36,535 nt of DNA from an uncultured delta proteobacterium (GTDB lineage: Bacteria > Desulfobacterota > Syntrophia > Syntrophales > Smithellaceae), in contig CAIVDK010000306.1 in the NCBI GenBank assembly GCA_903904655.1, positions 1 through 36,535 on the forward strand, given 5' to 3'. The position numbers and the translations under genes are program-made. Each line of letters opens with the position of its first letter. Position 1 is the stretch's first letter. This document shows, one piece after another, positions 23,938 to 36,535 of the stretch. The notes beneath the pieces are model-generated. The model did not search any database. It worked only from the letters and a program-made list of their open reading frames with translations, and was not told the origin of the DNA.

Positions 23938-25683
23938 TTATACTTTTTGTATCGGGAAAAATAAAGATACTTTTGTGCCGCGTCCCAACTGGCTTTCGAT
24001 TTCCATTTTGCCGCCATGCGCCAACATCAAGTGCTTGACAATCGAAAGGCCAAGGCCCGTGCCGCCCAGATCGCGTGAACGCGTTTTATCCACACGATAA
24101 AATCGTTCACCTAACCGCTGGATTTCTTCCCGGGGAATGCCCGCTCCGGTATCGGTAATCGCCACAACCACGTTCCCCGCTTTTTCTTCAGCGTCAATTA
24201 TTACGCTGCCGCCCTCGGGAGTAAACTTCACGGCGTTATCCAGCACATTGACGAAGACCTGACTCAATCTATCGCGGTCTGCTCGCACTGGCAATATTTT
24301 CCCCGGCGCATGATTTTCAATGCGGATTTTCTTTGCCGCCGCTTTTGCTTCCAGAAGCGGCAGAACACTGCCGATAATATCCAACAGAAACACATTTTCA
24401 AAACGAAAATTTATCTCACCCAGTTCGATCTTCGATATGGTCATTAGATCTTCCACCAAGCGATTCAGCCTTTGCGCCTGCTTGAGTATGATATCAATAA
24501 ATCGCTTGGCGTCTTCGGTATTGTCGATGGCGCCGGTCTGGAGCGTCTCCAAATACCCGATGATGGCCGTCAGCGGCGTGCGGATTTCATGTGTGACGTT
24601 GGCGACAAAGTCCGTACGAATCCTCTCCAGTTTTTTTAAGCGGGTAACATCATGAAAAACGACCATGTCTTTTTCTTCTCCGGGATGGTCGTGAACTTCC
24701 GAGATACTAACACTCATGATGACTGGATCAATGCTTCCCAATATGATTTCGCTGGATACGGTACCGTGTGATTGTTTAAACTGCTGGAACGCTTTTTGTA
24801 ATTCCACATTGCGGAAGGCTTCCATCAATGTCTTGCCGCCGACATCACCATACCGCGAAACCAGGATGTTAGCCAGCGACGGACTGACAAATTCAATTTT
24901 CTCGGCGGTATTTAAAATTAAAACTCCTTCGTTGATACTGGTCAAAGCAGTCATCAGTTTGCTTTTTTCTTCAAAAGCCTGCCGAATCTTGTTTTGCAAC
25001 TCTTCCACAAGATAGTTGATATTATCGGCCAGCTTCTTGGTTTCATCAGATGTTTTCAAAATTATGCTGCCCGAAGGCTCACCCTGACGAAGTCTTTCGG
25101 TAAATCTTTCCATCGCCCGAATCGGCTCGGCGATTTTATAAGAAATGAAGAGCGCAATAATCAGCGAGATAATGGACACGACAATAATCGTCAGGAAAAT
25201 GGATTGGTAAACTTTCTCGATCAGGCTCTGAACATCATGAAGAGGACGGGCTAATCTTACATAACCGGTGATCTGCGCTTTTGTTTTAATGGGTACGGCA
25301 ACATAGAGCATATCCACGCCCAGCGACTGACTGAACCGGATAGACTTCCCCTTGCCCCGCAGTCTCGATTCCTGTATTTCCGGACGGCTGAAGTGATTTT
25401 CCATCTGGGCGATCTCTTTTTCCGAATCGGCAAACACCTTGCCCTGTGCGTCCACCAGTGTCACCCGGGAGCCCGATATCTTGGCAATTTGACGCAATTG
25501 ATCGGACATCTCTATTGCGGAACTCAAATCAATCAGTTCGGCAGAGGTTAATAGTTCTCCTTCAATCTTGCCGGTCATAACTTTTCGAATCTCGTCTTTG
25601 ATAAAAACATTCAAAACGAGGAAGGAAAAAAAGATAATGACAAGATAGGAGATAAATATCTTTAAAAACAGATTGCGCTTCAC
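23938..25683 (-). CDS. phoR: PhoR-type sensor histidine kinase
   Basis: A 581-residue kinase starting with GTG; AAGGAG sits five bases upstream. Membrane helices at about 8-27 and 161-183 flank an extracytoplasmic sensor domain. HAMP (about 184-235), a PAS domain (about 245-350), HisKA with phospho-acceptor His365 in VTHEIRTPLTAI, and HATPase with NVLDNAVKFTPEGG, DTGAGIPREE and GGTGLGLSIVKH follow. The order phoU-phoR behind pst genes identifies it as the phosphate-sensing kinase. The usual partner phoB is not in the window. PhoU and the Pst transporter normally hold PhoR inactive when phosphate is plentiful. Confidence 0.9.
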   Translation of the reverse strand: MKRNLFLKIFISYLVIIFFSFLVLNVFIKDEIRKVMTGKIEGELLTSAELIDLSSAIEMSDQLRQIAKISGSRVTLVDAQGKVFADSEKEIAQMENHFSRPEIQESRLRGKGKSIRFSQSLGVDMLYVAVPIKTKAQITGYVRLARPLHDVQSLIEKVYQSIFLTIIVVSIISLIIALFISYKIAEPIRAMERFTERLRQGEPSGSIILKTSDETKKLADNINYLVEELQNKIRQAFEEKSKLMTALTSINEGVLILNTAEKIEFVSPSLANILVSRYGDVGGKTLMEAFRNVELQKAFQQFKQSHGTVSSEIILGSIDPVIMSVSISEVHDHPGEEKDMVVFHDVTRLKKLERIRTDFVANVTHEIRTPLTAIIGYLETLQTGAIDNTEDAKRFIDIILKQAQRLNRLVEDLMTISKIELGEINFRFENVFLLDIIGSVLPLLEAKAAAKKIRIENHAPGKILPVRADRDRLSQVFVNVLDNAVKFTPEGGSVIIDAEEKAGNVVVAITDTGAGIPREEIQRLGERFYRVDKTRSRDLGGTGLGLSIVKHLMLAHGGKMEIESQLGRGTKVSLFFPIQKV

Positions 25684-25692
25684 GCCGGCTCC

Positions 25693-26379
25693 TTATTCTT
25701 TTAAGGGACATGTCTGATGACGGACGCATTCGCCGGTCACCATATACATGACCATATCCGCAATGCCTTTGGCATGATCGGCGATGCGCTCCTGGTTTTT
25801 GGAAACCTGCATGATCAACAGGGCGCGATGAATCGATTTGGAATCCTCCATCATAAATGTTAGCAACTCGCGAAAAATCTGCTCATTTAGGTCATCGACG
25901 ACTTGCTCTGTTTGTCGAACCTTATCGGCCATCCCCAGATCGTTTCGAATAAAACTATCGAGGGAATCCTTGATCATCGAGCCGACCAGATCGGTCATCC
26001 GGGGCAAGTCAATATAGGGTTTGAGCTGCGGTTCTTCGTTTAATTGCAACGCCTTCTCGGCAATATTTACCGCCATGTCGCCGATTCTTTCCAAATGGCC
26101 TGTAATTTTGATCGCAGTGGTGATAAACCGCAAATCAATCGCCGTGGGCTGCCGCAGGGCTAATATCTTAATACACCGTTCTTCAAGGTTTGTGTCCAGT
26201 TTGTCAATTTCATTGTCATCCTTAATGACTTTTCGCGCGATGTCTGAATTTCTCTCAGACAGAGATTTCATCGCCTGCTGAATGGCCTTTTCCGTTAAAA
26301 CGCCGAGATAGATCAGGCCGTTCTTAATCTCCTGCAGTTCCTTTTCGTAGTGTGAACTGGTGTGTCTTTTTTCTTCCAT
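25693..26379 (-). CDS. phoU: PhoU, phosphate signalling protein
   Basis: A 228-residue protein from ATG 26379, chosen because GGAGG lies seven bases upstream. It has two PhoU-type three-helix repeats. Acidic metal-binding motifs appear in VIKDDNEIDKLD and in the second half DKVRQTEQVVDDLNEQ; RIGDMAVNIAEKA and RIADHAKGIADMV are the repeat signatures. PhoU couples Pst transport to PhoR. It is 9 bp upstream of phoR. The 187-bp gap to pstB is unusual for this operon and is filled by an inverted-repeat element. Confidence 0.95.
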   Translation of the reverse strand: MEEKRHTSSHYEKELQEIKNGLIYLGVLTEKAIQQAMKSLSERNSDIARKVIKDDNEIDKLDTNLEERCIKILALRQPTAIDLRFITTAIKITGHLERIGDMAVNIAEKALQLNEEPQLKPYIDLPRMTDLVGSMIKDSLDSFIRNDLGMADKVRQTEQVVDDLNEQIFRELLTFMMEDSKSIHRALLIMQVSKNQERIADHAKGIADMVMYMVTGECVRHQTCPLKE

Positions 26380-26415
26380 CTTTAGTCCTCCAAATAAATA
26401 ACTAAGTACCTTTAA

Positions 26416-26564
26416 AAAGACGGCTTTGCAAAATACCCTAAAGGGCACGCGAGGTTTAGATGCAAGGCGCGCAAATTCCGAGGAATGAGGCGTATAGTAT
26501 CATACGCCGCAATGACTAAGAATGCAGCGCAACGAAGCAGATAGGCCTTTTTCCAAAGTCGTCT
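26416..26564. mobile_element. ~150-bp element with terminal inverted repeats between pstB and phoU
   Basis: The left end AGACGGCTTTGCAAAA (26418-26433) and the right end TTTTTCCAAAGTCGTCT (26548-26564) are imperfect inverted repeats. The centre holds GGCGTAT-AGTATC-ATACGCC (26489-26508), a perfect 7-bp hairpin. The outer boundary lies two bases from the pstB stop codon. It has no ORF. The layout resembles a MITE or other dispersed non-autonomous repeat; I recall similar AAGGCGCGCAA...GAGGAATGAGGCGTA units in deltaproteobacteria but could not check. Confidence 0.6.
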
Positions 26565-26566
26565 CC

Positions 26567-27325
26567 TCATCCGAATCTTCCTGTAATATAATCTTCCGTC
26601 TGTTTGACATCGGGTTTGGTAAATATTTTCTCTGTCTTATTATACTCGACCAAATTTCCTATATAAAAGAAAGCTGTCTCATCGGAGATACGCGCCGCCT
26701 GCTGCATATTATGGGTAACAATGATGATTGTGTAGTGTTTTTTTAGCTCTTCAATTAACTCCTCGATTTTGGCGGTGGAAATGGGATCAAGCGCGGACGT
26801 CGGTTCATCCATCAACAAGATATCCGGCTTCATCGCCAGCGCGCGCGCAATGCAGAGCCGCTGCTGCTGACCACCGGAAAGATTCATAGCAGATTTATTT
26901 AAAATATCTTTCACCTCATCCCATAAAACAGACTGTTTCAGGCTTTGCTCCACAAGTGCGTCCAGGTCCCCGGCTTTCACTCCGGTCAGTTTCGGACCAT
27001 AGGCAATATTGTTATAAATCGTTTTCGGAAACGGATTAGGCTTCTGAAACACCATACCGATCTTGCGGCGGATTTCCACCGGATCGATATCAGGCGCATA
27101 GATATTCTTATCTTCAAAAAGAATTTCTCCTTCAACTCTCGTCCCGTCAATCAAATCATTCATTCGGTTCAAAAGTCTCAGCAATGTTGATTTACCGCAA
27201 CCGGACGGCCCGATGAGCGCCGTGACCTTGTTTTTTCCGAACGTCATCGATATATCCGTGAGCGCCCGGCTCTGACCATAATAAAAATTAACGTCTTTGA
27301 GCTTAATAATTGTGTTGGTTTCCAT
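26567..27325 (-). CDS. pstB: PstB, phosphate ABC transporter ATPase
   Basis: A 252-residue ATPase from ATG 27325, two bases after the pstA stop; a GTG three codons earlier overlaps pstA and is less likely. Walker A is GPSGCGKST (39-47), the ABC signature LSGGQQQR, and Walker [13 protein letters not shown], with the switch His in [11 protein letters not shown]. The insert [22 protein letters not shown]-like segment and [15 protein letters not shown] are typical of PstB. It drives phosphate import through PstA/PstC in the inner membrane. Confidence 0.97.
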
Positions 27326-27327
27326 TC

Positions 27328-28206
27328 CTACCACCTTTTGTTTCTTCTCATATAACTCCGAACAACAATCGCCACAAGATCGATTCCCAAGACGACCGCC
27401 ACTAAAACGAGCACCGTTCCGAACTGGATGGGGCGCGTGGCCTCAATATTGGTTCCCGCCGTTGCCAGAACGTAGATGTGGTAAGGCAGAGCCATTACTT
27501 CGTCAAAAACTGAACCGGGCAGTTTGGTTGTGAAATAAGCGGCGGCGGTGAACATGATCGGCGCCGTTTCACCGGCGGCGCGCCCAATACCCAGAATAGA
27601 ACCTGTCAGAATGCCCGGCAATGCGTTGGGCAGAACAATCCGATAAGTCGTTTGCCATTTGGAGACACCCAAAGACAGAGAGGCTTCACGAAAAGTCTGC
27701 GGCACGGATTTGAGGGCTTCTTCCGACGCGCCGATGATCGTAGGTAAAATCAGAAATCCCAGCGTCAGCGATCCGGACAGGATGCTCGATCCAAACTTCA
27801 GGAAAATGACAAAGAAACCCAATCCAAATAAGCCGAAAACAACCGAAGGAACACCGGCCAGACAGTTGATGCCCACTTTCAGGAAACGAATAATCCTGCC
27901 TTGTTTAGCATATTCGGTCAGGTAAATCGCCGACGCGATACCCAACGGCAAGCCAATCGCGATAGCACCGACCGTCAGATAGATCGTTCCCAAAATGGCC
28001 GGCATAATGCCGCCCTTCGTCATGGAATCCGTAGGGGGTTTGGTGATGAAATCCCAGCTGATTGCGCCGATACCATTATATGCAATATAAAAAATGATCC
28101 CCCCCAGGGCCAACGTAACGATCAATGCCGATGCGCGCACCAGACCAAAAAAAATCTGCTGCTTGAGATAACGCCACTTCATTGAATTATTATTAAATGT
28201 ATTCAT
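27328..28206 (-). CDS. pstA: PstA, phosphate ABC transporter permease
   Basis: A 292-residue inner-membrane permease with about six helices. Helix 1 is at about 20-46. The binding-protein-dependent transport motif is [24 protein letters not shown], which contacts Pst[21 protein letters not shown] is a PstA signature. It starts at ATG 28206, 11 bp after pstC, and is followed by pstB after 2 bp. Confidence 0.96.
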
Positions 28207-28217
28207 GCATTTTCCGT

Positions 28218-29105
28218 CTAAAGCGTCCCGGACCCGATCTGCCGGAATTTGTGTGAAACATAATCGGCAAACAGATTAAAAAACAATGTCAGGAAAAATA
28301 AAACGATGCCGATGGCGAAAAGCGCCTGATAGTGACCACTACGGAAAGGCGCTTCGCCCATTTCCGCAGCGATGCTTGCCGGCATCGGTCGAACCGAGTC
28401 AAACAGACTCTCGGGAATGGCTGCTGCGCCCCCGGCTACCATCAAAACCACCATCGTCTCGCCAATGGCCCTGGCCATCCCCAGCATCACCGCTGTGGAA
28501 ATGCCGGACATCGCCGCGGGCAAAATCACTTGGACAATGGTTTCAAATTTGGTTGCACCCAGGGCGTAAGACGCTTCCTTGTATTCCCGCGGCACGGCAT
28601 ACAGGGCGTCCTCGGAAATACTGGAAATCGTCGGGATCGCCATGAGGGCTAGAATAACCGAAGCATTGACAATATTCAGACCTGTGGGCAGATCAAACGT
28701 ATCTTGCAACCACGGTGCCACGATGACCATCCCGAAAAAGCCCAGAACCACGGAAGGCAGACCAGCTAACAGTTCGATGACAGACTTGAGAATCTCCTTG
28801 ATCGCCTGGGGAGCAATCTCCGCAATATAAATGGCGGCCATCACACCCAGCGGCACGGCAATGACAGTTGCCAGCAATGTGACAATCAAAGAGCCGACAA
28901 TCAGAGGGAAAATACCGAAGGACGGCGGATCATAGGTGGGATACCACTCCATCCCAAAAATAAAATCTTTGACGGAAACTTTACCGAATATCGGCAGGCC
29001 TTCCCGAAAAAGGGAAAACACGATCAGCCCCAGAACAATGACCGAAACCAGGGCAAAAAGAAAAAATATATATTTGATGATAATTTCTTTAGTTTGACGA
29101 TTCAT
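28218..29105 (-). CDS. pstC: PstC, phosphate ABC transporter permease
   Basis: About 295 residues from ATG 29105 with AGGG six bases upstream; an in-frame TTG six codons earlier is not needed. Six membrane helices are predicted. The permease loop EDALYAVPREYKEASYALGATKFET and the PstC signature MLGMARAIGETMVVLMVAGG are present. PstC pairs with PstA in the channel. A stem-loop lies between pstS and this gene. Confidence 0.96.
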   Translation of the reverse strand: MNRQTKEIIIKYIFFLFALVSVIVLGLIVFSLFREGLPIFGKVSVKDFIFGMEWYPTYDPPSFGIFPLIVGSLIVTLLATVIAVPLGVMAAIYIAEIAPQAIKEILKSVIELLAGLPSVVLGFFGMVIVAPWLQDTFDLPTGLNIVNASVILALMAIPTISSISEDALYAVPREYKEASYALGATKFETIVQVILPAAMSGISTAVMLGMARAIGETMVVLMVAGGAAAIPESLFDSVRPMPASIAAEMGEAPFRSGHYQALFAIGIVLFFLTLFFNLFADYVSHKFRQIGSGTL

Positions 29106-29164
29106 TCTTACCCTATAAAACAACTGCTGGATTAGGCCTTTCGACCAACTTATGTCTTCTCTTT

Positions 29165-29222
29165 AAACAAAAATGGCTCGCTCCGATTTATATAATATTC
29201 ACATCCGCAGCGAAGCCATTTT
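29165..29222 (-). terminator. Stem-loop attenuator between pstS and pstC
   Basis: On the minus strand AAAATGGCTTCGCT pairs with AGCGAGCCATTTT (one bulge), followed by a T-rich stretch ATTTTTGTTT. The loop is long (about 25-30 nt, A+T-rich). It would let pstS be made in excess over the permease genes, as is usual in pst operons. Confidence 0.6.
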
Positions 29223-29236
29223 GTTACAATAAAAGT

Positions 29237-30082
29237 CTATTTTTTCTTACCCGCTTTCTTCACATCAACAAGGGGAACAAATCCTTCTTTAGCCACGATT
29301 TTCTGCCCTTCAGCCGATTTCACGAACTTAATATACTTTGCCGCCTCGCCGGTTGGCTCGCCGTTGGTATACATGTAAAGCTCACGGGAGAAGGGGTATT
29401 CTTTGGACATCGCCGTCTGAATGGATGCGGTTATACCGTTGACTTGCAGGGGTTTAACGCTTTTATTGACATAACCGATGCCCAGATAAGCAATGGCATA
29501 GCGATTTTTTGCCACTGCGGTTACGAGAGCCCCATTGGAGGCCAACATCTGTGCTTTAGGGGTCACTTTGGCTTTTTTCATCACAAAATGATCCCAGGAT
29601 TCAAATGTGCCGGATGATGAGTCACGGGAGATGACCACGATCTTTAAATCTTCGCCACCCACTTCTTTCCAGTTGGTTATTTTCCCCTGATAAATCTGGC
29701 TTAACTGATCGGTGGACAGATTTGTAATTTTGTTTTTGGGATTTACGACAGGAATAATCGCATCGAAGGCCACAACATGAGCAACCGGCTTGACACCCTT
29801 CGTCTCAGCCAGTGCAATCTCTTCCTTTTTGATTTCGCGTGATGACGTAGCGATATCGGTTGTTTTATCAATTAACGCTTTGACGCCTTCTCCGGATCCG
29901 CCGCCGGATAAAGATATCTGCACACCGGGATTGGCTTTCATGTAGGCCTCCAATGTACCCTGCGCCACGGGCAGAACCGTGGTCGATCCCTTGATGACAA
30001 TGGATTCAGCGGCGACGGCCGCCCCCGCCGTGAAACACAACATTAAAAGCCCTAAGGACGCTTTCTTAAAGATATTGAACAT
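29237..30082 (-). CDS. pstS: PstS, periplasmic phosphate-binding protein
   Basis: About 281 residues from ATG 30082; GAGGAGG lies five bases upstream, so codons before it are not used. A Sec signal peptide ends A-V-A-A-E (cleavage near 24-25). Phosphate-binding loops are KGSTTVLPVAQG (31-42), LSGGGSGEGVKAL and SRDSSSGTFESWDHF, whose Ser/Thr/Arg residues hold the anion in the family. It delivers phosphate to PstCA. It heads the operon behind a Pho-box-like element. Confidence 0.97.
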   Translation of the reverse strand: MFNIFKKASLGLLMLCFTAGAAVAAESIVIKGSTTVLPVAQGTLEAYMKANPGVQISLSGGGSGEGVKALIDKTTDIATSSREIKKEEIALAETKGVKPVAHVVAFDAIIPVVNPKNKITNLSTDQLSQIYQGKITNWKEVGGEDLKIVVISRDSSSGTFESWDHFVMKKAKVTPKAQMLASNGALVTAVAKNRYAIAYLGIGYVNKSVKPLQVNGITASIQTAMSKEYPFSRELYMYTNGEPTGEAAKYIKFVKSAEGQKIVAKEGFVPLVDVKKAGKKK

Positions 30083-30110
30083 TTTATCCTCCTCAATTTT
30101 AATTTTGAGT

Positions 30111-30155
30111 AATATACAACTCAAATATTACAACATGATGACAAACCGATGAATC
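30111..30155 (-). promoter_or_regulatory. Pho-box-like promoter of pstS
   Basis: On the minus strand TTGTCAT (30144-30138) and TTGTAAT (30133-30127) are spaced 11 bp start to start; a third weaker copy GATTCAT (30155-30149) lies 11 bp before. Ten bases downstream is TATATT (30116-30111) as -10. The E. coli Pho box is CTGTCAT repeated every 11 bp, with the box in place of the -35. Confidence 0.7.
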
Positions 30156-30303: not shown

Positions 30304-31356
30304 CTAAATATTTTTTTCTATGATTTGGATGTCTATGGAAGAGCAGGTAACACTGCTTTTGCCGGCATAAACGAAGGCAACGACCCACAAAGCCCCCAGA
30401 AACATTATTAATTCCGGATTCCACAGCGACAGGAGACCGGCCATCAGATTAGGTGCGGCGAGATAATGTTTCGTATCCAGTAGCGCAATCATGATGGCAT
30501 ATCCCATGGCCAGCAACGTCATGATCTGATACATGGAAATACGACCGTGGCCCCGATGATCAGCCCGCAAGAATTCGGAAACAAAACGCCAGTTTTGCGT
30601 TATCAGCAACGTCATGATTAACGCCACCGCGGCAAAGCCTTTAATGAAAAGGTAAAAACCCAGAACGCCGGTCCCCGCGCAAATGACAGCGGTCAGCGCC
30701 TGAATCGGAACGACCGCCTGGCCTTCGAGTTGCTGAGCATAAGCAATTTTTTTGGTCCTTCCCCAAAAAACAAAATTCCATCGACGGAAGATTTTTTGAA
30801 TGAAAGGATCGCAATCAGCCAGCGGTTTCCCGTAACAACAACCAAAGCTGATGCAGGCCAGTCGCCCGATCCCTTCACCGAAAGCATAGGCAATCATAAT
30901 GGCCGCCAGGGTCTCTGTCATCGGAATATGAAACATCCACCACTTACCCAGAGTCATATTAACCAGCAGGATGAGCCACGGTGCTACGACCATGCCGACG
31001 AAGGAAGCGGCCCCCACGGAAAATGTGTGATGTTTTTTTTCCACCCACCGGGCAATGAAACGCGCAGCCCACATGCAAATGAGCAAGACCGGAAGGACAA
31101 CAGACAGAGCGCCCCATAGCGGAATACTCAGAGAACCGATCATGATCAGGAACATCACAACGGCAAACACATAAGCTAAAGCATTAAAAAAACCATAATA
31201 GGTTAAATTGACGCCACGCCAGATTCCATCGGTGCCTTTTCGCGAAGGCAGGCAGGCAAGAATCTGCCAGTCCTCTCCGGGGAGCGTTCTGAAAGCCCAG
31301 GAGAATAACAGAGCAATCACACCGGAAAGAATCAGGATAAAGATTTCAGCAAACAT
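30304..31356 (-). CDS. Lgt-family integral membrane protein with variant motif
   Basis: A 350-residue protein with about eight to nine hydrophobic helices. It resembles prolipoprotein diacylglyceryl transferase in NLTYYGFFNALAYV, VPIQALTAV and FVSEFLRADHRGHGRISMYQ (the Lgt C-terminal Arg/Glu motif region). In place of the Lgt signature G-R-x-x-N-F-x-N-x-E it has GRLACISFGCCYG (164-176), with three Cys. It is therefore an Lgt superfamily paralogue rather than a safe Lgt. Its ATG lies 11 bp inside the end of the DksA-like gene, so the two are translationally linked. A lipid-transfer role is inference. Confidence 0.7.
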   Translation of the reverse strand: MFAEIFILILSGVIALLFSWAFRTLPGEDWQILACLPSRKGTDGIWRGVNLTYYGFFNALAYVFAVVMFLIMIGSLSIPLWGALSVVLPVLLICMWAARFIARWVEKKHHTFSVGAASFVGMVVAPWLILLVNMTLGKWWMFHIPMTETLAAIMIAYAFGEGIGRLACISFGCCYGKPLADCDPFIQKIFRRWNFVFWGRTKKIAYAQQLEGQAVVPIQALTAVICAGTGVLGFYLFIKGFAAVALIMTLLITQNWRFVSEFLRADHRGHGRISMYQIMTLLAMGYAIMIALLDTKHYLAAPNLMAGLLSLWNPELIMFLGALWVVAFVYAGKSSVTCSSIDIQIIEKNI

Positions 31357-31750
31357 GATTATAGGAAATTCCTTTCATGGGCCATTGCCTGTTTCTTCGT
31401 TTATGATTGATTTCTTCCTCCTCCTTGCATTCCATACATAATCTGCTCATGGGTTCGATGCGAAGTCTTTCTTTGGGAATCACTCTGCCACAGTGATCGC
31501 ATATACCGAATAACCCCTTGTCGATGCGCATGATAGTTTCCTTGATATCAAGTATCAATTCCCGTTCCCTGTCCCGGCAGGCTAACTCAACATACTTATT
31601 GGAATCGGTTGCCGCCTGGTCGAAAGGATCAGCATAGTTGCCGTCGGCATCTTTCATTTTAGATATTGTCTGGCCCGCATTGGACCAAAGTTTTTCCATT
31701 TTTTTAACCAAAGCATTCCTGATAGGCTGTGTCTGTTCTTTCCTCACCAT
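31346..31750 (-). CDS. TraR/DksA-family zinc-finger protein
   Basis: A 134-residue protein from ATG 31750, with GGAGG spaced six bases upstream. The N-terminal coiled coil has the tip sequence DPFDQA (41-46); in E. coli DksA the equivalent D-x-x-D-x-A is needed to act in the RNA polymerase secondary channel. The zinc finger is Cys84-x2-Cys87 and Cys105-x2-Cys108 (GICDHCGRVIP, SRLCMECKEEE). It is thus likely a transcription modulator that works with ppGpp or alone. It is smaller than E. coli DksA (151). It lies 13 bp after the phosphatidylserine decarboxylase gene and overlaps the next gene by 11 bp. Confidence 0.85.
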   Translation of the reverse strand: MVRKEQTQPIRNALVKKMEKLWSNAGQTISKMKDADGNYADPFDQAATDSNKYVELACRDRERELILDIKETIMRIDKGLFGICDHCGRVIPKERLRIEPMSRLCMECKEEEEINHKRRNRQWPMKGISYNHVC

Positions 31751-31763
31751 GGCTACCTCCGTT

Positions 31764-32795
31764 TCATGCTTGCATAATTTTTATTTTATCCTGCTGGTTG
31801 CAGGAACTGGCAATATATGATCTAACTTTAACATCCGTTTCGACCAGGGATTTCCCAAAGCCGCTGCTGAAAATGCTTTCGGCGTCCGGATAGAACATAT
31901 TCGCTGCAATATCATCCGCAAACCGCACTCTGTTTTTTTGAAATATCAACACGACCGTGCTGCTACCGGGGCGGAACAGGCTCTTAGGCATCCCTTTTTC
32001 GACAAACATGCCTGTGCCGACAGAAACAGGATTGTCGTACTTTTTTTCACTGTAACACTGAACGATATTGCCAATCATCAGAGCTACAACTTCAATCATG
32101 GCCACAAGGCCTGCCTTTGTTCCGCCCTCCACGTCCGTATCAATTATCGTCACCACGCGCTTATTTTTGGAATAAGGCGTCACAACGGAAACAATGGCAT
32201 TGGGGTTACAGGCGTGATAAGTTCCGTGGATTTGATAAAAGTCGATTATTTTTCCGGCAACAGGCGTGTGATTGTAGTGATATTTCTCGGGTGTCAGCCT
32301 GAAAACCGCAAAGTCGCCCTTCCGAAAGGCCGCAAGCCAGGTGCCCTTGTCAGCGCCGAACATCTCCTCGTAGTCAAAAAACTTATCCTTGATAAACAAC
32401 CCCGATTCTTCCTGAAACGATCCCAAAAGCATTCTGGAATCAGCAGGAGATACAACGGCGCGCGGATCATTGGGCATCGGGCGACATTCCCCATAACGAA
32501 TTTTTCTTTCAAATATTTTTCTCAAGGAGTTTAGATTTTCCGGTACATCCAGGCATTCTCCCGGATCGATATTCAATTGTTGATGGATATCCAAATAATT
32601 ATTCATGCGCCTGGATAGAATTCCGTCATAGTTCATATGACCCAGCACACTGGAAATCCTGGCACTGGTCAGCCTGCGAAAAAGCCAGGATGACTGTTCA
32701 CGGATACGGGAATAGAGAAATTGAACGGCCTGGTCGCCGTAAAACTGTTCCGTTTTGATCCTGCGCGTGTCGCGCTCTATGTAATGATGCTGCAT
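31764..32795 (-). CDS. psd: Phosphatidylserine decarboxylase (proenzyme)
   Basis: A 343-residue proenzyme that should decarboxylate phosphatidylserine to phosphatidylethanolamine. Recognisable segments are VVSPADSRM (Asp119), YHYNHTPVAGKI (His173/176), VEVVALMIGNIVQ-like EVVALMIGNI, GTGMFVEKG and the cleavage motif FRPGSSTVVLIF. The motif is P-G-S-S at 276-279 instead of the E. coli L-G-S-T; G-S autocleavage would leave the Ser278-derived pyruvoyl group. An N-terminal ~100-residue extension has no clear family. It lies 10 bp after the large unknown gene. No pssA is nearby. The role is secure by family; the substrate could be a related phospholipid. Confidence 0.9.
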   Translation of the reverse strand: MQHHYIERDTRRIKTEQFYGDQAVQFLYSRIREQSSWLFRRLTSARISSVLGHMNYDGILSRRMNNYLDIHQQLNIDPGECLDVPENLNSLRKIFERKIRYGECRPMPNDPRAVVSPADSRMLLGSFQEESGLFIKDKFFDYEEMFGADKGTWLAAFRKGDFAVFRLTPEKYHYNHTPVAGKIIDFYQIHGTYHACNPNAIVSVVTPYSKNKRVVTIIDTDVEGGTKAGLVAMIEVVALMIGNIVQCYSEKKYDNPVSVGTGMFVEKGMPKSLFRPGSSTVVLIFQKNRVRFADDIAANMFYPDAESIFSSGFGKSLVETDVKVRSYIASSCNQQDKIKIMQA

Positions 32796-32805
32796 ATTTT
32801 GATAT

Positions 32806-35232
32806 TTACCTGTCTGTTTTATTCTGAAATTTTCGATTGAGTTCCTTCTTGTAATGGATGTGCACTAAAATAATATGGACTAATTTCTCGAGCGTTTCTT
32901 CCAAAGCGGTTTCCCCGATTATTTCTCGTTCGGCTCGATCCAGAAATTCGCCAATGTTTTTTTCTTTCAAAATGCCGTGAAGCAGACATCTGATGTCCTG
33001 CCTTAAACCCGCAGAGACATTTTCCAGTTTGATCATGTCTTCTCTAAGCAATCCAAAAGCCTCCCGAATCTGCCGGTTGCGCAAATCCGTACGATAGTAT
33101 CTTTCTGCGGTCCGATTAAATTTATCGGCGCTAAGCTCCAGGGCGGAACCGGCGCCGGCCACGCTCAGAATACCGGACTTCAGCCTACCACAGGCGGAAA
33201 AACGGTCTGGTTCGCTGAGTCGGGCATCAAGCTCGTCGATACTTTCCCGCATACCGAGCATTTCGATGAGGTCCGCCGCATCTTCGCGCAGGATGTTCAA
33301 AAGCGCCCTTCTGTATTCAAGATTATGAACCCGCGCGTATCCCGGATATCGATGACTCATACGCCCCCGTTTTGTTCTGGCAATAATTTTTTTCAGCAGG
33401 GCATTGCCGGTATTGTTTCGCACAAAGAAAGTCGGTATCCCGATGGCCGTACCGAAAATGACTTGCCGTCGTTCACTTTCAACGGAAGGATCATCCGGAA
33501 TATGCTCATGACCGATCTGTCCGGTGACAATATATTTGAAGGCTAAAAGATAGAGAAGATTTTGCAGCGTTACGGCCGGTCCCATATCCTGCGTAAAGCT
33601 TTCAAAAAGGCTGTAGTGGCGTCCTTCAAAACCGGAAAAGCCCATAACACTGTATTCGCGAAGCTTCTCCAGAAGATAAAGAGACATTTTGGAGTCAAAC
33701 ACACCAAGATCGGCAAGATCTTCTTTCAGCCGCTGCGTGTTATGGAGTTCGCCGTTTAAGGCCGGGCTCTTATCCGTGCTCATTAAAACGACCAGATAAT
33801 CAATAAGGCGAAAGTCGGGGATAAAATCCCCCTTTAAGCGAAACGTCTTGCTGATCAGATTATCAATCCATCGTGGGCCAAAAGGCGTAATGGACCGGCC
33901 GAAGATGTTCAGGTCGGCTTTCTTCCGCCAGCGCCGCCAGAGCATTCGTAAATGCGTATAATCCAATTCATGCGGAAGAAACCCCAGGGCTTTCTCCGGA
34001 TGGAAATCGACAAAATCGAGGCGATAGGGTGCGGCGCTGTATGTGCCGACAAACAGCGGCAGGAAATGCTCGACGATCTTCACAACCAGATCACCGATAT
34101 ACTTTTCGTCTCTCGCGGAAAATCCCGATGAAGGATCGTGAAGCAGACGGCTGATTTTGGTGCTTCCCAAACTCACATGGGTTCCATTGTTGGCCAGGCT
34201 GATATTTGATAAATTAGGCAGCGACACCAGATTGCTGGTAATGATTCCGGCTTCGCGGAGTTTCAGAACAGCGTTGAATTGGCTGCGGCTCAAAACACGG
34301 TGACACAAATGCATGTATTGATGCTTTTCTTCGCCTTTATCCCATCCGGACAGGCAGGGATTCATGAAGAGTTCCCGGTAAAACGCATCAGAAATGCAAT
34401 GGCTTAAAACTTTCTGACGGGTTGGCGGATGTGGTGATGAAAAAATCATCCCTTTTTGTCCGCTCTCCTGGAGCGCGAATTTTTTGTTGGCGTACATGAC
34501 CAGCAACTGGCTCAATAAAAAGCGGATGGCCGCCTCCTTGGCTACAGTCCGACCCATGCCCACTTCCGATTGCATGGCGACAACATAGAAAGATGACGTC
34601 TCCGGCGACGTATTATCATTGAGATAAGATTGCATAATATTCAGGCCGGTTTTGTGGATAAGCGGATGAACCTTGCGTTGCGGATCAATAATTTCCGCCA
34701 GAGATAGTTTTAAAAGATAACTGATTGGAATCCGAATATATCCGAGTCCATCTTTTTGAAAAATAAATCTGTTTAAATCTGATCGCTGCCCGGCAAACAT
34801 ATTCTCCTTGTCGGCCAGGATATCGTACTGAACAATCGTCTTGGCAAGATCTCCCATTTTATCCTGGGGAAAACGGACCCAGCTGTTTTCCCAGACGCCT
34901 TCCTTATTTATATTTAAGTATTCTTCCAGGTCGGTCATGACCTTGCGGGAAGTATCTCCAGCCTTTGCCCGTCGTTTCGTATTGATAAAATAGTTGGATT
35001 GTTCGATGAAAAGGGGCAGATCAACGTCATGCTTATTCCCAACAACAACCGTCTGCATTTCCGATTCACTACCGGCGGTCGTATCTGCAGGTGCAAAGGG
35101 CAGTGATCCGACATTCAAACCTAATCGATCATACTTCACACCGAATATTTCCGATATTTCTCTAATTGATTTAGGGGCAACATTGTCTGGCCTTGCCTGA
35201 TAATTCACTATGTCGGTGTTTGCTCTACTCAA
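32806..35232 (-). CDS. Uncharacterised 808-residue protein
   Basis: The start is TTG 35232, supported by AAGGAG seven bases upstream. I do not recognise a family. The protein has no signal peptide and no membrane helix, so it should be cytoplasmic. Visible features are a possible helical region at 195-330, a Thr/Ser/Gly-rich stretch THVSLGSTKISRLL (351-364), a charged block with RLDFVDFHPEKALGFLPHELD (404-424) whose His411 and His421 look like site residues, WRRWRKK (432-438), and a long charged coiled-coil-like C-terminus (about 690-800). It leads a tight group with psd, a DksA-like gene and an Lgt-like gene, which suggests a role in membrane lipids or its regulation. This is inference only. 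Confidence 0.8.
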   Translation of the reverse strand: MSRANTDIVNYQARPDNVAPKSIREISEIFGVKYDRLGLNVGSLPFAPADTTAGSESEMQTVVVGNKHDVDLPLFIEQSNYFINTKRRAKAGDTSRKVMTDLEEYLNINKEGVWENSWVRFPQDKMGDLAKTIVQYDILADKENMFAGQRSDLNRFIFQKDGLGYIRIPISYLLKLSLAEIIDPQRKVHPLIHKTGLNIMQSYLNDNTSPETSSFYVVAMQSEVGMGRTVAKEAAIRFLLSQLLVMYANKKFALQESGQKGMIFSSPHPPTRQKVLSHCISDAFYRELFMNPCLSGWDKGEEKHQYMHLCHRVLSRSQFNAVLKLREAGIITSNLVSLPNLSNISLANNGTHVSLGSTKISRLLHDPSSGFSARDEKYIGDLVVKIVEHFLPLFVGTYSAAPYRLDFVDFHPEKALGFLPHELDYTHLRMLWRRWRKKADLNIFGRSITPFGPRWIDNLISKTFRLKGDFIPDFRLIDYLVVLMSTDKSPALNGELHNTQRLKEDLADLGVFDSKMSLYLLEKLREYSVMGFSGFEGRHYSLFESFTQDMGPAVTLQNLLYLLAFKYIVTGQIGHEHIPDDPSVESERRQVIFGTAIGIPTFFVRNNTGNALLKKIIARTKRGRMSHRYPGYARVHNLEYRRALLNILREDAADLIEMLGMRESIDELDARLSEPDRFSACGRLKSGILSVAGAGSALELSADKFNRTAERYYRTDLRNRQIREAFGLLREDMIKLENVSAGLRQDIRCLLHGILKEKNIGEFLDRAEREIIGETALEETLEKLVHIILVHIHYKKELNRKFQNKTDR

Positions 35233-35297
35233 ATTCTATCTCCTTCATATATATTTTTCTAGTTTTACGAGGAGATAATAACTCTTCAATGTTTCAA

Positions 35298-35412
35298 AAT
35301 GATGAAGGAATGGAGATGATTTGATTAAATATTAAAAGGCAGAAGACTCTGAAAAAATATTTCCCGGGGTGTTTGTTTTCTGTTTTTACATTTTAATCAA
35401 TCCTTCATCATT
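35298..35412. repeat. Mirrored two-block motif in the divergent intergenic region
   Basis: The left copy is AATGATGAAGGA (35298-35309), 11 bp, then TTGATTAAA (35321-35329). The right copy, read on the other strand, is AATGATGAAGGA immediately followed by TTGATTAAA (35412-35392). Both blocks match perfectly; the left has an 11-bp insertion, one helical turn. The 35233-35520 gap otherwise holds no gene. Confidence 0.55.
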
Positions 35413-35470
35413 CCGTAACAATATACTGGTACATTCCCGTTCGATCATAAAGGGTTTACGCGGAAGCAGC

Positions 35471-35520: not shown

Positions 35521-36535
35521 ATGAAGAGATTTTGGGTTATTGTGTTAGCGCTGGGGCTGATCGCGGCCTTCAGCACATCGGTTTTTGCGCTGAACGTCAA
35601 GTTCAGCGGCGAGTACTACGCGGCGGGTATGTATCTGGATAAGACAACTCTGCAGAAGGATGTGGGCCCCTCCACTGCGTTTTATTACCAGAGATTAAGG
35701 GTTAGGACGGACTTCATAGTATCACCGGGCTTGACTCTGATCACGCGTTTTGACGCGATGGAGCGCGCTTGGGGCGCAACCAGAAGTACGGCCGGCACGA
35801 CACTGGCGGCTGACTCTGCCGGAACGGTTGCGGAAAATGAAAACATCGCTTTTGACTGGGTTTACATCAATTATAAGTCACCCATCGGTGTTTTTGATGT
35901 CGGTATCATGAATGACGGCGCTACGGGAACTATCTTTGGTGATAGCTATTCCCCTTTGGGACGAATCAAATATGCTTATACAATCGGTCCTGCTGAGATC
36001 AAATTAGCTTATACCAAAGCCAGAGAGGCCGGCAATACCGCTATATATGCCGGCAATACCGCTGCTGCTGACAACGATAAATACGGCATTGAGGGTGTCT
36101 TCAATTGGAAGGGCGGCAAGGCCGGCATGCAGGTCAATTACTACAACTATGCCAATACGCGTCCTCCGACCAACAACTATAAAAGAACCTATTTTCTGTT
36201 TACACCTTATGTGATTGCCAAAATTGGCCCGGTGGCTCTGCAGGCGGAATTCAATTACCTGACCGGTGATCAAAAGTATGAAGGGCCCTCAATAACTCCC
36301 GATAAAAAACTCCAGAACATGTCCGGCTGGGTTGACGCTACTGCCGATTTCGGCATGTTTTACGCCGGGGGCAGCATCGCGTATGTGTCGGGCGATGATC
36401 CCGGAACCACTGATAAAATCGAAGGTGGAATCATCAGTGGCGGTCGTGACTGGAGCCCCTGCCTGATTATGTGGAACTACGAACGGACTCAATGGGCAGG
36501 TGGCTTGGCCGGTTATAATGCGGCTGCTCAGGATA
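35521..36535 (+). CDS. Outer-membrane porin-like protein (partial)
   Basis: The ATG at 35521 has GGAGG five bases upstream. Residues 1-23 are a Sec signal peptide ending S-V-F-A before L-N-V. The mature part consists of alternating amphipathic strands with aromatic ends (VKFSGEYYAAGMYLD, FYYQRLRVRTDFIVSPGL, FDWVYINYKSPIGVFDVGIM, AGMQVNYYNYAN), the look of a beta-barrel porin. The C-terminus is beyond the right edge after 338 codons. The N-terminal third with xxQRLRVRxDxxxSPxLxLxTRFDAMER resembles porins of deltaproteobacteria. Substrate is unknown. Confidence 0.82.
   Translation, partial: MKRFWVIVLALGLIAAFSTSVFALNVKFSGEYYAAGMYLDKTTLQKDVGPSTAFYYQRLRVRTDFIVSPGLTLITRFDAMERAWGATRSTAGTTLAADSAGTVAENENIAFDWVYINYKSPIGVFDVGIMNDGATGTIFGDSYSPLGRIKYAYTIGPAEIKLAYTKAREAGNTAIYAGNTAAADNDKYGIEGVFNWKGGKAGMQVNYYNYANTRPPTNNYKRTYFLFTPYVIAKIGPVALQAEFNYLTGDQKYEGPSITPDKKLQNMSGWVDATADFGMFYAGGSIAYVSGDDPGTTDKIEGGIISGGRDWSPCLIMWNYERTQWAGGLAGYNAAAQD

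Follow-up and report, generated by a model that had tools for sequence, protein, structure and literature searches.

Which process unites four closely packed genes that encode an 808-amino-acid (aa) protein, a phosphatidylserine decarboxylase (Psd)-like enzyme, a DksA-like protein and a relative of prolipoprotein diacylglyceryl transferase (Lgt)? The cluster lies in a 36,535-nt stretch from an uncultured delta proteobacterium of the Smithellaceae (GenBank assembly GCA_903904655.1, contig CAIVDK010000306.1), which as a whole is called the window. We named the large protein BIG, and we use the term module for BIG together with the Psd- and Lgt-like proteins (module Psd and module Lgt). Our reading, to which we give a probability of about 0.6, is that these three proteins form one PhoB-controlled pathway that makes or alters a membrane lipid under phosphate scarcity. 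The cluster is composed of the following genes.

32806..35232, minus strand: BIG, 808 aa, TTG start after AAGGAG, carboxylate-amine ligase (glutamine-synthetase-type) fold predicted
31764..32795, minus strand: module-type phosphatidylserine-decarboxylase-family gene, the second psd of the genome, 343 aa, PF02666
31346..31750, minus strand: DksA-like gene, 134 aa, DksA_N and zf-dskA_traR
30304..31356, minus strand: module-type Lgt-like membrane protein gene, 350 aa, LGT match

Spaced by 10 and 13 bp and finally overlapping by 11 bp, the genes lie on a single strand, and the initial annotation had been exact in the positions, strand and spacing of all four open reading frames (ORFs). Its family calls for the three smaller proteins agree with Pfam and NCBIfam scans. 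The PF02666 match of module Psd (E 2.6e-39) and the DksA_N and zf-dskA_traR matches of the DksA-like protein exceed their cut-offs, TIGR02420 (E 1.6e-26) falls below its own, and module Lgt scores 23.4 bits with the LGT model, slightly under the cut-off of 24.9. For BIG the same scans gave zero family matches, and no meaningful match to the PDB was obtained by sequence. NifB, with a match of E 1.5 spanning 30 residues, was rejected as a relative. Scans for promoter and terminator consensus sequences remained at chance level.

To see which of these genes belong together, relatives of BIG were collected from GTDB contigs. This yielded 208 encoding stretches, the best 80 of which were kept as loci (L009-L088). 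BIG relatives in these 80 are mostly from Desulfobacterota (Syntrophales, Geobacter and relatives, Desulfobacteraceae, Syntrophobacter types), but BIG is also found in Candidatus Brocadia, Candidatus Anammoxibacter and one Nitrospinae metagenome-assembled genome (MAG). Within the phylum of the Anammoxibacter genome, 4 of the 199 sampled genomes carry BIG, and no BIG relatives were found in plasmid and viral contigs. A module-type psd is present within 77 of the 80 loci and an lgt-like gene within 70, nearly always downstream and on the same strand. In the three cases lacking psd (L025, L027, L058), the genome carries a module psd elsewhere. As for the ten loci without lgt, the contig ends soon after psd or BIG in five, the gene is located elsewhere in the genome in four (L025, L027, L058, L065), and L038 was left out of the follow-up. 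The order BIG, psd, lgt is kept in all 20 carriers fetched from two phylum samples. Given this conservation, the cluster is not a product of chance. The gene dksA, by contrast, is found in the cluster mainly at Syntrophales loci and is missing from it in most loci outside this order; it is mostly a Syntrophales addition, a lineage-specific companion outside the core trio. The neighbourhood survey proposed in the initial annotation thus upholds the joint module for BIG, psd and the lgt-like gene, but not for dksA. The suggestion that the module serves lipid modification or lipid stress also finds support, since the three genes travel together and BIG matches no known housekeeping family.

Phylogenetic profiles were determined in a sample of 297 Desulfobacterota genomes, identical for all three proteins. 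Full-length BIG occurs in 31 genomes, module Lgt in 32 (scores of at least 395 bits, next best 43.5) and module Psd, which forms a distinct clade, likewise in 32 (at least 482 bits, next best 136). The three carrier sets are identical except for one genome (G155), in which psd stops 146 bp before the contig end, exactly where BIG should start. Another genome (G041, 66% complete) contains only a 25-bit N-terminal stretch of BIG at a contig end. The carriers are spread over many families, and because the genomes are not independent we give no p-value. Four genomes of the window's genus (G007, G008, G011, G014) are without BIG and contain a single psd and a single lgt each, while nearly all carriers tested have one additional psd and lgt beside the canonical copies. 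The canonical psd was present in every carrier tested, that of the window's genome on another contig (G000:C46). In one carrier (G263) the additional Lgt was overlooked by the Pfam model and recovered by the module profile. Pairwise distances of the three module proteins correlate with coefficients of 0.85-0.93 (58 loci, uncorrected for the species tree). BIG, psd and the lgt-like gene are inherited as a unit that is additional to the housekeeping psd and lgt.

What kind of stress could such a unit serve? Most likely it is phosphate starvation, a point absent from the initial annotation, to which both Pho boxes and neighbouring Pho-regulon genes point. The relevant features of the window are listed below.

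35291..35307, minus strand: Pho-box-like repeat CTTCATCATTTTGAAAC upstream of BIG, a variant, with matching sites before BIG in relatives
35403..35419, plus strand: Pho-box-like repeat CTTCATCATTCCGTAAC facing a divergent porin-like gene, pattern match
30127..30143, minus strand: Pho-box-like repeat TGTCATCATGTTGTAAT upstream of pstS, pattern match
26567..30124, minus strand: phosphate transporter genes pstS, pstC, pstA and pstB, from Pfam classes and order
23938..26448, minus strand: phoU (TIGR02135 above cut-off) and a PhoR/PnpS-type histidine kinase gene (best models PnpS, WalK and PhoR)

The module is located directly upstream of pstSCAB, phoU and the kinase gene. The pattern [TC][GT]TCATCATNN[TC]G[AT]AA[CT] has exactly three occurrences in the window, before BIG, the porin-like gene and pstS; it was written from the window itself, and what is independent is that it turns up again at the corresponding positions in relatives. 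For comparison, the box reported for D. vulgaris is a repeat of (c/t)GT(n)AC with a 4-bp spacer (PMC3333781). In 94 sequences upstream of BIG, PhoB-type half-sites form 58 pairs at a distance of 11 bp and 45 pairs at 22 bp, against 9.9 in shuffled sequences in either case. A strict box of two half-sites was detected in 28 of the 94 BIG promoters and in none of 97 background promoters, for which nine carrier genomes supplied unrelated regions. This background is richer in GC, yet has no 11-bp peak relative to its own other spacings. A first control, drawn from other genes at the BIG loci, was likewise enriched, plausibly through membership of these neighbours in the Pho regulon or through a shared intergenic region, hence the use of unrelated regions. 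A search with the E. coli Pho-box consensus gave hardly any enrichment (6 of 74); the signal appeared with the degenerate half-site and the analysis of spacing. Genes for Pst, PhoU, PsiE or Ppk are present at 32 of the 80 loci compared with 1 of 20 background regions. Taken together, the module is probably under PhoB control and would respond to phosphate starvation. The porin-like gene (35521-36534, plus strand), which diverges from BIG, is cut by the window end and has a weak DESULF_POR1 match; with its own box at 35403-35419 it is possibly phosphate-regulated too.

To gain insight into BIG, its structure was predicted with AlphaFold2. A run with 7 sequences had been poor (predicted local distance difference test, pLDDT, 54.6), whereas the model built from 92 sequences reached a pLDDT of 91.4 and a predicted template-modelling score (pTM) of 0.93. 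The top Foldseek matches of this model were glutamate-cysteine ligases, the bifunctional GshF, PafA and Dop, with modest E-values (best 3e-3). VIA-align gave Z scores of 16.6 for GshF, 16.2 for GshA, 14.8-15.2 for YbdK and a homologue, 14.6 for PafA and 14.3 for Dop, compared with 6.5-8.8 for glutamine synthetases and less than 5 for unrelated chains. Motifs described for the superfamily are GhExE (Ex[EH]) in core strand 1, [HD]x[NH] in strand 4 and Ex[RK]xxD in strand 6 (PMC2588565). BIG contains G53xE55xE57 in 91 of 91 sequences, the h position being frequently Ser, and E114, H351, E535, R537 and S540 are each invariant (92 of 92). The latter motifs read H351xS353 and E535xR537xxS540, so that S353 and S540 stand where the superfamily has N/H and D, with strands assigned by sequence order rather than superposition. 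Comparison of the BIG profile with single GshA and YbdK sequences by hhalign gave no match, and GCS2 was not found in the genomes of 40 relatives. As the predicted fold matches while the sequence profile does not connect BIG to these GshA and YbdK sequences, we regard BIG as a new family having a predicted carboxylate-amine ligase fold. It shares with the carboxylate-amine/ammonia ligases (GshA/GCS1, GCS2/YbdK, GshF, PafA/Dop) the predicted fold, the GxExE of the first core strand, and a His and an ExR in the motifs assigned to strands 4 and 6, but differs in its 808 aa with large additions, in its HxS and ExRxxS motifs and in its location in a lipid-gene operon. The initial annotation had called it a large protein of no recognised family, which holds for the sequence and not for the predicted fold: the structure prediction and fold search it had suggested produced a confident model with ligase-fold matches at Z 14-17. 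From this model we infer that BIG may ligate a carboxylate to an amine.

Pyruvoyl enzymes decarboxylate alpha-amino-acid substrates. In module Psd, D118, H172, H175 and the PGSS self-cleavage motif (G276-S277-S278) are invariant in 25 sequences. Since the catalytic and self-cleavage residues are kept, it should act on, and decarboxylate, an alpha-amino-acid group. The catalytic Asp/His residues and the GSS motif are shared with the phosphatidylserine decarboxylase family, in which PRK00723 is the closest NCBIfam model. Unlike that family, however, module Psd is a separate clade and always additional to the canonical enzyme.

Two methods aligned module Lgt in register with E. coli Lgt; the low hhalign probability reflects the use of a single sequence. 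Equivalents of Y26, F102, R143, R239, E243 and R246 are present in 32 of 32 module sequences, His103 in none, V/I/L/A-type residues being found there instead. Furthermore, Cys replaces N146 and E151, and Thr replaces E202. For diacylglyceryl transfer the E. coli enzyme requires both R143 and R239; none of its tested H103 mutants complements, and its HGGL motif has been proposed as the binding site of the lipobox peptide (PMC4728403). As His103 is lost while R143 and R239 are kept, the acceptor is probably not a lipoprotein, and with no His103 among 32 sequences we did not file the protein as a lipoprotein Lgt. Module Lgt is thus akin to Lgt as a membrane protein with the Y26, R143, R239, E243 and R246 equivalents, and unlike it in having about 350 aa, in lacking His103 and in standing alongside a canonical Lgt. 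The simplest reading is that it would be a diacylglyceryl transferase using another acceptor. Outside the module, paralogues in which GCC[FH]G replaces NGELWG (L136, G000:C45:3000-4500; L139, G054:C1:467600-468900) indicate that several non-canonical Lgt subfamilies exist. The window's genome also has a second canonical-type lgt (G000:C263:2418-3185), read with an internal TAA, which may be a pseudogene or derive from a contaminating contig.

How could these three activities form one pathway? Module Lgt would move diacylglycerol from phosphatidylglycerol onto a non-lipoprotein acceptor, the phosphate leaving as glycerol phosphate. Module Psd would remove the carboxyl of an alpha-amino-acid headgroup, and BIG would join a carboxylate and an amine via an acyl phosphate using ATP, like gamma-glutamylcysteine ligase. 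Most economically, the product would be a phosphorus-free or phosphorus-sparing aminolipid; the substrates and the order of steps in this scheme are guesses. More specifically, the trio could make an undescribed class of phosphorus-free aminolipid, with Lgt-type transfer onto either an amino acid or a gamma-glutamyl compound, Psd-type decarboxylation of the headgroup and BIG building or capping it by an amide, a version we regard as tentative. Several points weigh against a PhoB-controlled lipid pathway. The Lgt active site faces the periplasm, while BIG requires cytoplasmic ATP, and a Psd in a phosphorus-saving pathway requires a non-standard substrate. The strand-4 and strand-6 motifs read from BIG are variant (HxS, ExRxxS), and no sequence similarity ties the protein to known ligases. 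The strict Pho box is missing from 66 of the 94 promoters, though the motif definition is narrow.

The intact residues of module Psd would also suit phosphatidylserine, the ordinary substrate of Psd, and the fold of BIG makes amide bonds. A modified phospholipid could be built accordingly, with the second Psd making phosphatidylethanolamine and BIG coupling the amine of this lipid to an amino acid or some other carboxylate, in a role in envelope charge or stress. We consider this unlikely, given that a canonical psd is already in every carrier tested, that Pho control fits poorly with extra phospholipid synthesis and that the Lgt-like protein is left unexplained. Less probable still is a phosphate-controlled lipidation of peptides or proteins, in which BIG would ligate a peptide tag like PafA and the Lgt-like protein would add diacylglycerol. 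PafA and Dop are among the fold matches of BIG (Z 14), and Lgt normally lipidates proteins (PMC4728403), but His103 and the HGGL motif, the proposed lipobox-peptide binder, are lost, no small conserved ORF recurs nearby (only ORFs of at least 90 aa were clustered), and Psd would be without an obvious role.

Syntrophales operons, that of the window included, have DksA in their midst, and a further reading makes DksA the centre of an operon for general regulation or envelope stress, with BIG as a structural protein. The absence of DksA from the cluster at most non-Syntrophales loci and the many invariant catalytic-type residues of BIG make this highly improbable.

The PhoB-controlled lipid pathway can be compared with known lipid remodelling under phosphate starvation (PlcP-Agt, BtaAB, OlsBA/OlsF). 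Both feature Pho-box control and place lipid enzymes close to phosphate genes, as has been reported for plcP clusters (PMC4796936), but none of the trio's core enzymes belongs to these systems. D. alaskensis replaces phospholipids by glycolipids and ornithine lipids (PMC5193443), and uncharacterised aminolipids were reported from phosphate-starved marine bacteria (PMC4796936). A literature search limited to openly licensed papers returned no description of the trio. Phosphorus-free membrane lipids allow microbial life where phosphate is scarce. The trio occurs in many anaerobic bacteria, where it probably makes or remodels an unusual membrane lipid; Pho-linked, headed by a new ligase-fold family and present in about a tenth of the sampled Desulfobacterota genomes, it provides a genetic handle on this lipid. 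If the reading is true, Lgt-type chemistry extends to a different acceptor and a new family joins the fold known for ligation of glutathione, glutamine and Pup. If the product is a phosphorus-free aminolipid, its route is distinct from those of betaine lipids (BtaAB) and ornithine lipids (OlsBA/OlsF).

Other genes recur beside the module. A protein combining a PHP-like and a family-4 glycosyltransferase (GT4) part was found at 16 loci, a DUF2062 protein at 16 and a zinc-dependent phospholipase C homologue at 11. Neighbour clusters c16 and c17 resemble mis-called antisense ORFs and were set aside. In Brocadia and the Nitrospinae MAG, the gene after lgt scores best, though under the cut-off, with models of the lipid N-methyltransferases OlsG and PmtA. 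This hint that the module product may carry an amine comes from just two loci. Neighbours that resemble lipid glycosyltransferases, phospholipase C and aminolipid N-methyltransferases speak in favour of a lipid pathway. The PHP-GT4 protein (about 815 aa; L034:339-2768, L028:2911-5319, L032:12693-15146) starts with the PHP phosphoesterase-like part and ends with GT4, and in some loci its gene is placed between psd and lgt. In five loci it is adjoined by a gene for a protein of about 709-735 aa (L032:10337-12544, L070:2281-4410), the L070 copy being without a Pfam match. A probable exported protein of about 255 aa without a Pfam match (cluster c12, 11 loci; L039:5496-6263) is often encoded just upstream of BIG in Geobacter-type loci.

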